Assembly (NCBI GenBank): GCA_001797815.1
Contig: MGQK01000068.1
Coordinates: 1-9,886 of the forward strand
Length of the DNA: 9,886 bases
Source of the DNA: Deltaproteobacteria bacterium RBG_13_61_14
GTDB lineage: Bacteria; RBG-13-61-14
Direction: 5' to 3'
Positions 33-4,790 of this stretch are shown piece after piece; the stretch's first letter is position 1, and the number at the start of each line of letters is the position of its first letter. Under the pieces are notes generated by a model, which did no database searches, had not been told where the DNA came from, and was given only the letters and a program-made list of their open reading frames with translations. The translations under genes were made by a program, and so were the position numbers.

Positions 33-59
33 GGGGTCAGAGCTTCACATGAAACTTAA
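33..59 (+). repeat. Left inverted repeat of RAYT element
   Basis: This begins GGGGTCAGAGCTTCAC and continues to position 59. It is the reverse complement of 1037-1063 except for one base in the middle (A here, T in the complement of the right copy). The transposase promoter-like TTGACA starts only four bases further on. Confidence 0.9.
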
Positions 60-62
60 GGC

Positions 63-91
63 TTGACAGGTTGTGCCGTGCTTGATAGGCT
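63..91 (+). promoter_or_regulatory. Putative sigma70-type promoter of the RAYT transposase
   Basis: A perfect TTGACA (63-68) is followed after 17 bases by TAGGCT (86-91), preceded by TGA, which fits an extended -10 (TGn). The -10 box matches the consensus at only three positions, but these include the two most conserved outer ones. Transcription would start about 97-98, at the ATG itself, so the transcript would be leaderless. That agrees with the absence of a Shine-Dalgarno sequence before position 98. The call rests on motif matching only. Confidence 0.4.
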
Positions 92-97
92 TCGGTC

Positions 98-1051
98 ATG
101 GCCCGGCCCTGGCGCATAGAATTCCCGGACGCGCTTTACCATGTAACCGCGCGGGGCAATAACCGGCAGGCGATTTTCTTGGAGGACGATGACCGACGAA
201 GCTTCCTGGACCTCTTGGCCTCGGCCCACGAGCGTTACGGGCTGGGGATTCTTGCCTTTTGTATGATGGATAACCATTATCACCTGTTCCTGCGCACCCC
301 GCGGGGCAACTTGAGCCGCGGCCTGCAATGGCTGAATACCACTTACGCCGTTCGCTTTCATCGCCGGCATGGTCGTTCGGGCCATCTTTTCCAGGGCCGG
401 TTCAAGGCGGTGCTGGTGGTTGACGAGGGGCACTGGCTTCACCTGTCCATGTATTTACACCTTAACCCGGTGCGGGCCAAAGTGGTGGAAGATCCCGCGG
501 ACTATGCATGGTCGAGTTTTCGGGACTATACGCGGTCGCGCTCGCGTTTTGAGTGGCTCCAGCCGGAGGAAATCCTGGCCCAGTATGGCCAAGGAGCATC
601 CGAGCGTCGCCGGCGCTACCGGCGGGAGTGCTTGTCCTTAGCCGGCTCGCGGCCGGATTGGCTTGAGCAGTTGCGAAGCGGAGTGATTTTGGGGGCGCGG
701 GAGACCCTGGCAGAAATGGTCCGGAAGTATCAACCCGCGGGCCAGCAGGAAGCGGTGCCGCAATTTACGGAGGCGAGTCGGCCCCGGGTGAACGGCGAAC
801 ACGAAATGGCGCGGGTGGCCCAAGTGTTTGGGGTAGCGGCCGCGGACTTGCAAAGGAAGCGTCGGGGGTTCCCGCCGAGGCTGGCGGCCTATGGCCACCT
901 GGTGGAGCACTGCGGCTTGAGCGTCTCCGAGACCGCGAGCTTGACCCGCGCCAGCACCACCGCGGTTTCTATGGGGCTGCGCCGGTGCCGCGAGCTGAAG
1001 TCCCGAGATGCTTCCTTTGCAACGCACCTGAAACAGTTAAGTTTCAAGTGA
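98..1051 (+). CDS. REP-associated tyrosine transposase (RAYT, Y1_Tnp) with DnaA-like C-terminal domain
   Basis: This is a 317-residue single-strand DNA transposase of the HUH/Y1 superfamily. The N-terminal domain (about 1-130) opens with the family signature around LYHVTARGNNRQ (13-24). It carries the metal-binding HUH-type motif HYH at 60-62, the GHLFQGRFKA segment at 95-104, and the likely nucleophile Tyr119 in the family motif YLHLNPVRA. About residues 231-305 resemble the C-terminal DNA-binding domain of DnaA, with a helix-turn-helix near LSVSETASLTRASTTAVS, as in the longer RAYTs. All catalytic residues are present. The ATG at 98 has no ribosome binding site. The stop codon lies inside the right inverted repeat, so the last residues (LSFK) are encoded by the repeat. 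The family probably cleaves and joins REP-like hairpins, which is inference here. Confidence 0.92.
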   Translation: MARPWRIEFPDALYHVTARGNNRQAIFLEDDDRRSFLDLLASAHERYGLGILAFCMMDNHYHLFLRTPRGNLSRGLQWLNTTYAVRFHRRHGRSGHLFQGRFKAVLVVDEGHWLHLSMYLHLNPVRAKVVEDPADYAWSSFRDYTRSRSRFEWLQPEEILAQYGQGASERRRRYRRECLSLAGSRPDWLEQLRSGVILGARETLAEMVRKYQPAGQQEAVPQFTEASRPRVNGEHEMARVAQVFGVAAADLQRKRRGFPPRLAAYGHLVEHCGLSVSETASLTRASTTAVSMGLRRCRELKSRDASFATHLKQLSFK

Positions 1052-1063
1052 AGCTCTGACCCC
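1037..1063 (-). repeat. Right inverted repeat of RAYT element
   Basis: Read on the minus strand, this repeats the left end (33-59) with one mismatch in 27. It overlaps the last codons and stop of the transposase (stop at 1049-1051). It ends one base before the Shine-Dalgarno sequence of the acyl-CoA synthetase gene. Confidence 0.9.
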
Positions 1064-2928: not shown

Positions 2929-3351
2929 GTGAAGAGCAAGCGAATGTGGGCAGGAAGTATAGTTCTGGCCGCGGTTCTTTTCAGCGCCGGGTGTTACGTG
3001 AACTTGACTTCGCCCATGTCCTACCGATCCGCCACCCGGACCGACGCGCTGGAGTTGGTGGAACTGGGGCCGGCCCAGGGACAGGCCTGTGCCAAGGCTT
3101 ATCTGGGCATTGTGATCATCGGCGACGCCGGCTACCAGGCCGCGGTGGCCGAGGCGCTCTCGGCCTCGGGCGGGGTCATGCTCTATGACGTGCGGTCCGA
3201 CACCCACTTGAAAAACTACTTCGGGATCTTTGCCCGCGAGTGCACCATCGTGCACGGCATCGCCGTCGGGCCGGCGCCGGCCGCGGCCGCTTCGCCGGTC
3301 GAGCCGATGCCAATGCCGCCTGCATCGGAAGAAGGGGCCACGGTCCCATGA
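2929..3351 (+). CDS. Small lipoprotein resembling the TRL-like family
   Basis: With GTG 2929 as start, this is a 140-residue protein. The lipoprotein signal peptide has KSKR as n-region, a hydrophobic core IVLAAVLF, and lipobox SAGC with the lipidated Cys at 22. The mature part holds SPMSYRSATRTD (28-39), then YLGIVIIGDAGYQAA (58-72), then DVRSDTHLKNYFGIFARECTIVHG (split around 87-110). The pattern of a GDA segment followed by a D..xxN.xGI(F/Y) stretch and a final T.V.G strand recalls the TRL-like (tRNA-associated locus) family of small envelope proteins of unknown function. The last 30 residues are a Pro/Ala/Met-rich tail. GTG 2908 would add seven residues and overlap the synthetase stop by four bases. 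It overlaps the next gene by ATGA. Lipoprotein status is well supported; the family call is from memory of the motif pattern. Confidence 0.7.
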   Translation: MKSKRMWAGSIVLAAVLFSAGCYVNLTSPMSYRSATRTDALELVELGPAQGQACAKAYLGIVIIGDAGYQAAVAEALSASGGVMLYDVRSDTHLKNYFGIFARECTIVHGIAVGPAPAAAASPVEPMPMPPASEEGATVP

Positions 3352-3857
3352 AGCGGGGTGTGGTCTTAGTTTTGGCCTTGGCCGGCCTGGGTTTGCCGGG
3401 CTGCGCCGGGGTGATCCGGTTCCTGGACGGCTTTTTCACGCGGGGCGAGTTGGTGGAGGAGAGTTATGCGGCGCACAAGACCGTGCGCCGGGCCCGGTTG
3501 AACCCGCAATCGCCTTCGATCATTTACCAGGATACCCGGGGCTCGCTTTCCTACCCCTCGCCGGTGATCCATGACCTGGCCCGAAACCTGGAATTTGGCC
3601 GGGTGGTGCCGGTGGAGGCGGAAGCCTGCGAGACCCATGTGCTGATTCCCTTGAGTTTGATCGCGACTCAGCAGATGCTGATTCCGGACGTGGACGTGAC
3701 CCGGGGCAATAAGGGCTATGAACTCGCGCGCGAGCGCATCCAGCAGGACTATCAGGTCACGGATATCTTCGACCTGCGGGTGGACGTGCGCCGGCGCAAA
3801 ATCTGGAACGTGTATGAGCGCGAGTGCCTGCTCATCCATGCTCTGGGGGTGAAATAA
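3348..3857 (+). CDS. Small lipoprotein, probable divergent relative of the preceding one
   Basis: The start is ATG 3348, which overlaps the stop of the previous gene as ATGA, a usual sign of translational coupling. The frame is open further upstream to 3240, but only this start gives a clean lipoprotein signal: MKRG, a Val/Leu/Ala core, and lipobox LPGC with Cys19. The 169-residue product has no domain I can name with certainty. Its C-terminal third (123-169), GYELARER... then DLRVDVRRRKIWNVYERECLLIHALGVK in two parts, aligns by eye with GYQ...DVRSD...ARECTIVHGIAV of the upstream lipoprotein, so the two look like diverged duplicates. It is probably an inner-leaflet or outer-membrane anchored envelope protein. 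The stop is seven bases before the next start. Confidence 0.7.
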   Translation: MKRGVVLVLALAGLGLPGCAGVIRFLDGFFTRGELVEESYAAHKTVRRARLNPQSPSIIYQDTRGSLSYPSPVIHDLARNLEFGRVVPVEAEACETHVLIPLSLIATQQMLIPDVDVTRGNKGYELARERIQQDYQVTDIFDLRVDVRRRKIWNVYERECLLIHALGVK

Positions 3858-3859
3858 CC

Positions 3860-3888
3860 GAAATGTGAAATGTGAAGACCTGACCCCA
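3860..3888 (+). repeat. Partial copy of RAYT-type terminal repeat at a gene start
   Basis: GTGAAGACCTGACCCCA at 3872-3888 matches GTGAAGCTCTGACCCCA at the right end of the RAYT element (1048-1064) at 15 of 17 positions, in the same orientation. It is preceded by two direct copies of GAAATGT (3860-3866, 3867-3873). No second half or transposase is attached. It covers the start codon and the first eight codons of the PP-loop gene. It is most simply a solo end or REP-like relic of a related, not identical, element. Confidence 0.6.
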
Positions 3889-4551
3889 TACCACAAGGCC
3901 TGGATCGCCTGGTCGAGCGGCAAGGACAGCGCCTGGGCCTTGCACCTGGCCCGGCAGATGGGTGAAATCGAGGTGCTCGGCCTGCTCGCGACCATCACCG
4001 AAACCTACGGCCGTGTCTCCATGCACGGGGTGCGGGAAGAGTTGGTGGAAGCGCAGGCCCGGGCGGCCGGGCTGCCCCTGCACAAGGTATTTATCCCCGC
4101 GCCCTGCTCCAACGAAATTTACGAAGCGGCCATGCGCTCCGCGCTCGAACAGGCGAAAGGGCAGGGCATCACCCGGGTGATCTTCGGCGACCTGTTCCTG
4201 GAAGATCTGCGCGCCTTTCGGGAAAAGCGGATGGCCGAGATCGGGATGACCGCGCTCTTTCCGCTCTGGAAAAGGGAGACGGGGCAGCTTGCCCGCGAGA
4301 TGATCGCGGCCGGGCTTCGCGCTTACCTCACCTGCCTTGATCCCAAGGTGATGCCGACCGAACTCGCCGGCCATTCCTTTGACGAGGCGCTGCTCGCCCG
4401 CTTGCCCCGGGGCGTGGACCCCTGCGGCGAAAACGGCGAGTTCCACACCTTTGCTTTCGCCGGCCCCATGTTCGACCGGGCCATCCCGGTCCGCCGGGGC
4501 GAGACCGTGCTCCGGGAGGGTTTTCTTTTCACCGACCTCTTGCTTTATTGA
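3865..4551 (+). CDS. PP-loop ATPase, Dph6-like (diphthine-ammonia ligase superfamily)
   Basis: This is a 228-residue adenine-nucleotide alpha hydrolase. The PP-loop SSGKDS is at 17-22 after the strand AWIAW. MHGVREELVEAQA and a C-terminal CGENGEFHTF (187-196) are hallmarks of the Dph6/ATP_bind_4 family. In eukaryotes and archaea the relative amidates diphthine on EF2. Bacteria lack diphthamide, so here the substrate is unknown, although an ATP-dependent amide or thiolation-type reaction through an adenylate is expected from the family. The length is normal for bacterial members. GTG 3865 is the only usual start codon that keeps the whole PP-loop strand, because an in-frame stop lies at 3850. 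It sits in a repeat relic, so residues 1-8 (MKCEDLTP) are repeat-encoded. The Shine-Dalgarno is weak (G-run around 3845). It is the last gene of the cluster begun by the acyl-CoA synthetase. Confidence 0.85.
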   Translation: MKCEDLTPYHKAWIAWSSGKDSAWALHLARQMGEIEVLGLLATITETYGRVSMHGVREELVEAQARAAGLPLHKVFIPAPCSNEIYEAAMRSALEQAKGQGITRVIFGDLFLEDLRAFREKRMAEIGMTALFPLWKRETGQLAREMIAAGLRAYLTCLDPKVMPTELAGHSFDEALLARLPRGVDPCGENGEFHTFAFAGPMFDRAIPVRRGETVLREGFLFTDLLLY

Positions 4552-4579
4552 GGATCGCGTAATTGGTTGACACGCGTAA

Positions 4580-4607
4580 GTAGGGGCGGCTCACGAGCCG
4601 CCCCTAC
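4580..4607. repeat. 12-bp perfect stem palindrome (intergenic hairpin)
   Basis: GTAGGGGCGGCT (4580-4591) pairs perfectly with AGCCGCCCCTAC (4596-4607) around a CACG loop. It lies 28 bases after the PP-loop gene stop, between convergent genes. There is no T-run, so it is either a strong structure protecting or ending both transcripts, or a member of a dispersed GC-rich palindromic repeat family. Confidence 0.7.
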
Positions 4608-4624
4608 CCCGCCTGGGGCGGGGT
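4606..4624. terminator. Second GC hairpin, overlapping the first, possible terminator
   Basis: ACCCCGCC (4606-4613) pairs with GGCGGGGT (4617-4624) across a TGG loop. It shares two bases with the preceding palindrome, so the two stems compete at their junction. No U-tract follows, hence only a tentative terminator. The remaining intergenic DNA to 4790 holds nothing I can assign, apart from a weak AGCC/GGCT stem at 4657-4668 followed by TTTT. Confidence 0.35.
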
Positions 4625-4790
4625 TCTGGATGACAACCTGAATTGGCAATACCACCAGCCCAAAGGCTTTTCATGTCAATCTATTCTGCGATCCTCAATA
4701 ATACTCCGACTAAGCCTCAAGCAGGCCGGTCTCGAACCTTCCCCCGGCCGTTCAGCCAGGTCCGGGCCAGGCGGCTTGAAAGTGGGAGTT

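Follow-up and report, generated by a model that had tools for sequence, protein, structure and literature searches.

In Deltaproteobacteria bacterium RBG_13_61_14, a solitary 25-bp terminal inverted repeat (TIR) of an IS200-like transposon very probably supplies the start codon and a dispensable N-terminal tail of a gene coding for a Dph6-like PP-loop ATPase. The window, that is, the whole 9,886-nt stretch of contig MGQK01000068.1 that was analysed, contains this gene at positions 3865..4551 on the forward strand (228 amino acids; diphthamide-synthase domain, PF01902, E 1.5e-28). It is preceded by an ORF whose translation is lipoprotein-like (3348..3857, forward strand) and which ends with a TAA codon at 3855-3857, 7 bases before GTG 3865. 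Upstream of the repeat, the frame of the Dph6-like gene is closed by a TGA at 3850..3852 (forward strand), from which the codons AAT AAC CGA AAT GTG AAA TGT GAA GAC CTG ACC CCA lead to the first beta strand and are followed by TAC CAC AAG GCC TGG. Start-like codons in the interval from this stop to the first strand are limited to GTG 3865 and CTG 3880, both of them within the repeat, and according to the codon listing and the ORF list, the GTG (3865..3867, forward strand) is the only canonical in-frame start located 5' of the strand. When the 25-mer was deleted in silico, the joined flanks read TAA CCG AAA TAC CAC and contained zero start codons. As no start is present outside the repeat, initiation that preserves the first strand can only take place within the repeat, and the native start must have been lost. 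The codon listing and the deletion therefore bear out the first-pass annotation of this DNA, which had named GTG 3865 as the sole usual start preserving the strand, had assigned the residues MKCEDLTP to the repeat and had placed an in-frame stop upstream at 3850.

The repeat itself occupies positions 3863..3887 on the forward strand, with its outer end at 3887, and is a perfect copy of the 25-mer ATGTGAAATGTGAAGACCTGACCCC, which is read in the frame of the gene as VKCEDLT plus the CC of the following codon. Its limits follow from an alignment of the flanks, in which a sharp outer edge falls after CCCC and the inner edge lies at or just before ATGTGAA. The 25-mer is found in 15 exact copies genome-wide, including the window copy, and in 31 copies within 3 mismatches, compared to 0 for the control, for which the same genome was searched with the reversed pattern. 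The 17-mer TGTGAAGACCTGACCCC has 17 exact copies in the genome and 143 at up to 3 mismatches (reversed-pattern control: 5). Within the window, a 16-mer search allowing up to 3 mismatches matched positions 33-48, 1048-1063 and 3872-3887 only, at a chance expectation of 0.12, and these three matches are not attributable to chance. The first-pass annotation had described a match at 15 of 17 positions between 3872-3888 (GTGAAGACCTGACCCCA) and 1048-1064 (GTGAAGCTCTGACCCCA), which we confirm, and a 17-base repeat over the 5' end of the gene, for which the location holds and the extent does not, the real unit being the 25 bases of 3863-3887. The genome search for further solo copies that it had suggested revealed a multicopy repeat, with the identical 25-mer at 14 other places. 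An exact 23-mer of the repeat was not found in the viral contigs searched, and no family was matched in an Rfam search of the window.

Class and genomic copies of the repeat

The 25-mer is the TIR of one subfamily of an IS200-like tyrosine-transposase transposon. A full-length element is present on contig C79, where two inverted exact 25-mers bound a 1023-bp element (26284-27306) with a Y1 transposase, the domain of which matches PF01797 at 26887-27213. Read inward on the reverse strand, the outer end of the TIR is GGGGTCAG and fits the GGGGWSAS motif. TIRYTs are described by Di Nocera et al. (2013, PMC3733652) as RAYT-like tyrosine transposase genes that have TIRs carrying the GGGGWSAS motif, and not REPs, on either side. 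The elements described here resemble these TIRtrons/TIRYTs in their Y1 transposase, in their long TIRs starting with GGGGTCAG and in their single as well as paired dispersal. They differ in that the TIR overlaps coding sequence and provides a start codon, whereas the intragenic insertions covered in the relevant sections of PMC3733652 are GTAG/CGTC REPs.

The window also carries a transposon of a sister subfamily (33..1063, forward strand), with TIRs at 33-59 and 1037-1063 that are 96% complementary and a Y1 transposase at 98-1051, in which an HYH motif was seen and transposase Pfam matches were found. It was initially assumed that the repeat was derived from this RAYT element; this origin was rejected by the subfamily alignment, in which the repeat at 3863-3887 (AAGACCTGACCCC) and the window transposon (AAGCTCTGACCCC) fall into different TIR subfamilies, the full-length relative of the repeat being the element on C79. 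The designation of the repeat as REP-like could not be upheld in its strict sense either, since the 25-mer is not self-palindromic and forms no hairpin (0 kcal/mol on either strand), and belongs with the GGGGWSAS-type TIRs. Inspection of the repeat sequence showed no GTAG or CGTC tag at its ends, and no REPIN partner was found at the 3863-3887 site in a search of the window, though doublets elsewhere in the genome fold strongly: the inverted TIR doublets on C15 and C123, each 81 bp end to end, fold as long hairpins with z values of -11.4 and -9.6, respectively.

In the subfamily to which the repeat belongs, 10 copies are solo and 4 loci are paired. Among the copies at loci L001-L017, 10 of 17 are solo, and nine of these ten match the 25-mer perfectly. 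The singlets of REPIN systems show more decay than the doublets. Because the solo copies found here are mostly perfect, unlike such singlets, solo TIR ends may be actively produced in this genome. Three further observations concern the architecture of the elements. The doublets at L005:792-872 and L015:1437-1517 have an equal total length of 81 bp and unrelated 31-bp inner sequences, as if the spacing rather than the sequence were constrained. Two tandem heptamers within the TIR co-vary across subfamilies, being ATGTGAA twice, ATGTCAA twice or ATGTAAA twice, and this pattern suggests that they might form a repeated recognition site. Lastly, a 70-bp doublet on C46 (26924-26993; L007:1501-1570) combines one TIR of the subfamily of the repeat with one TIR of the subfamily of the window transposon, and is either a hybrid element or the result of two adjacent insertions.

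The Dph6-like protein and its N-terminus

The Dph6-like gene is present in a single copy in the genome. Its product scores 100 bits against PF01902 (cut-off 23.2) and retains all residues that are invariant in the family alignment; the PP-loop SxGKDS motif is present, and W16, S17, G19, K20 and D21 are invariant in the alignment. With its PP-loop fold, its conserved motifs and its fold matches to PH1257 (2d13) and PF0828 (3rjz), the protein is similar to the Dph6-like N-type ATP pyrophosphatases (PF01902). It differs from archaeal Dph6 in that it belongs to a bacterial branch and scores below the NCBIfam cut-off, reaching 72.5 bits with the archaeal Dph6 equivalog (TIGR03679, diphthine--ammonia ligase) where 197.3 are required.

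Among ~80 relatives from many phyla with 54-65% identity, the start is located 0-12 residues before the equivalent of H10, with a median distance of 4 residues compared to 9 in the protein described here. The first-pass annotation had pointed to the N-termini of orthologues as a check on its reading, and MKCEDLTP is seen in none of these ~80 relatives; nor is there a KCEDLTP-like N-terminus among them, their tails being variable and unrelated. In the AlphaFold (AF2) model, for which an alignment of 59 sequences was used as input, the mean pLDDT is 95.7, with ~97 for the core and 64 over residues 1-10. Residues 10-15 form the first strand. The residues encoded by the repeat thus stand in place of a tail that is not conserved in the family, and they would be tolerated because the family is variable before the first beta strand. 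No orthologues were found in the genomes searched from the genus, order, class or phylum, in which the phylum is represented by 3 genomes, the other two of them without a Dph6-like gene; these genomes included no close relative with an empty site. The upstream lipoprotein-like gene was absent from the relatives searched.

The 3' end of the Dph6-like gene coincides with a second mobile repeat. A MITE-like inverted-repeat element (4546..4700, forward strand), unrelated to the TIR, was delineated by its genome copies, a shared left edge and a strong hairpin. It has arms at 4545-4572 and 4674-4701 and an internal GGGGCGGCTCACGAGCCGCCCC hairpin, and further full-length and partial copies with 83-98% identity are present in the genome. 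The first bases of this element, TATTGA, are the codon for Tyr228 and the stop codon of the Dph6-like gene.

Probable initiation at GTG 3865 and proposed origin of the arrangement

A Shine-Dalgarno (SD)-like GGGGGTG is located at 3845..3851 on the forward strand, within the 3' end of the lipoprotein-like gene, and its RNA duplex with the anti-SD has a predicted energy of -9.7 kcal/mol. The spacing of 13 nt to GTG 3865 is longer than usual. Judging from these signals, initiation at GTG 3865 via the GGGGGTG, or alternatively by coupled re-initiation, is plausible. In addition, the repeat contains an ATG-TGA at 3863-3868, the TGA of which overlaps GTG 3865 in a GTGA arrangement, and which could be a decoy or a one-codon re-initiation device. 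Predicted pairing between the GGGGG of the SD and the CCCC of the repeat could lower expression. Due to the long SD spacing (13 nt) and the ATG-TGA decoy 2 bases upstream of the GTG, translation of the Dph6-like gene may be weak.

We consider it likely that a solo TIR supplanted the native start and that translation of the Dph6-like gene now begins at GTG 3865 and yields a tail encoded by the repeat. On this reading, the 25-bp TIR would have settled between the lipoprotein-like gene and the Dph6-like gene, either having arrived by transposition or having remained from the end of a longer element, and the native start would have been removed or displaced by it. One of the three forward frames of the TIR (GTG AAA TGT GAA GAC CTG ACC CC) has a start codon and no stop, and the protein read from GTG 3865 would begin with the unstructured tail M-K-C-E-D-L-T-P. 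Ribosomes would start at this GTG with the aid of the GGGGGTG, and possibly also through coupling to the upstream stop or through the ATGTGA stop/start overlap. As the repeat copy is perfect, its sequence suggests that the insertion may be recent, and since the event may be too recent, the intactness of the gene is no proof of its continued use. The term exaptation, used in the first-pass annotation, would moreover imply that the change had been maintained by selection.

A different route is conceivable, if somewhat doubtful: the copy could be what remains of a doublet or a full transposon that kept its right end and lost its left part, along with the native start, in a deletion. In this genome, the TIR of the copy also occurs in doublets and in full elements, and REP singlets are usually viewed as remnants of doublets (PMC3116915). 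However, a search of the window revealed nothing resembling a left end upstream of the copy, and the solo copies of the subfamily, perfect in 9 of 10 cases, do not look like decayed remnants. A remnant instead of a solo insertion changes the route and not the outcome. We regard it as unlikely that the insertion wrecked the initiation region and that the frame stayed open by luck, in which case the gene would have been disabled recently and would be translated poorly, if at all. Such a gene would be in line with the perfect repeat, which suggests a recent event, with the long SD spacing, with the AUG-UGA decoy overlapping the GTG and with the pairing predicted between the GGGGG of the SD and the repeat's CCCC, but the ORF is complete and coding-like in its codon use, it retains every family-invariant residue, and a strong SD and an in-frame GTG exist. 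The chance is slight that two regions were misjoined at the dispersed 25-mer during assembly and that the true upstream sequence lies elsewhere: although the assembly consists of 132 contigs and the 25-mer occurs repeatedly in it, many solo copies sit cleanly between intact genes, the SD and the gene order near the site look normal, and the 25-base repeat is shorter than the k-mers usually used by assemblers. A coincidental match between the repeat and what would be normal sequence of the gene is refuted by the genome counts, with 14 further identical copies against 0 in the control, and is also at odds with orthologues that are without the peptide of the repeat.

Transposon ends as coding sequence

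When 76 TIR copies from all subfamilies were examined, 18 were found to overlap a coding-like ORF, mostly at its 3' end, and the window copy is the only one within which a gene begins without an alternative start in the next 50 bases. In-frame GTGs in copies on C79, C125 and C90 were considered as start-codon cases and rejected, as these genes have starts of their own 4-16 bases downstream. A copy of the 25-bp TIR on C12 (~25076-25100; L003:1500-1527) encodes, on the reverse strand, the eight C-terminal residues of TsaD, GVRSSHFT, as well as the first base of its stop codon, and abuts an rRNA adenine dimethylase (RsmA-like) gene, the TGA/ATG junction with which is overlapped by the inner edge of the TIR. 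On C82, a TIR of a sister subfamily (~17977-18001; L027:1-1908, minus strand) is read in frame as ECQMSRPDP inside an MrfA/YprA-like repair helicase, which, when aligned to B. subtilis YprA (6znp), has six extra residues at the TIR loop. The TIR is largely stop-free, namely in one forward frame, which has its own GTG, and in all three reverse frames. It is conceivable that TIRs are ready-made translatable caps that have repeatedly been taken up, N-terminally in the Dph6-like protein, internally in the MrfA-like protein and C-terminally in TsaD, with the Dph6-like gene receiving its start and its stop from two unrelated repeats.

Genes decorated with small repeats have been described before. 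The sections of PMC3733652 dealing with such ORFs report REP- or RPE-decorated ORFs in O. terrae, Thauera and Rickettsia conorii, including N-termini and DNA-repair helicases, and state that N-terminal RPE-1 tags in R. conorii are expressed; for several species, N-terminal REPs are judged there not to be truly coding, as downstream starts exist. Similar to these cases, a small mobile repeat lies here within the frame of a conserved protein, in our case as read from the sequence alone. In contrast to the self-palindromic REPs and RPEs covered in those sections, the repeat is a TIR, and no downstream start would keep the fold. The pneumococcal BOX elements likewise are small repeats that overlap the ends of genes: a BOX-derived stop was reported for 36 CDSs, and boxC could provide the start of a few ORFs, but these ORFs encode no known protein and lack good SDs (PMC3049150), whereas the gene described here codes for a conserved ATPase.

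Taken together, the type of event is already known from REP/RPE-decorated ORFs and BOX-supplied stops, and it involves a different repeat class here. With the start of the Dph6-like gene very probably supplied by the TIR, this would be an unusually clean and countable example of a conserved enzyme whose translation start comes from mobile DNA, and the category of decorated ORFs, described for REPs and RPEs, would be widened to include the TIRs of tyrosine-transposase elements. For annotation, the case is a warning, as unusual N-termini starting with (M/V)KCEDLTP would reflect a transposon end and not protein homology.
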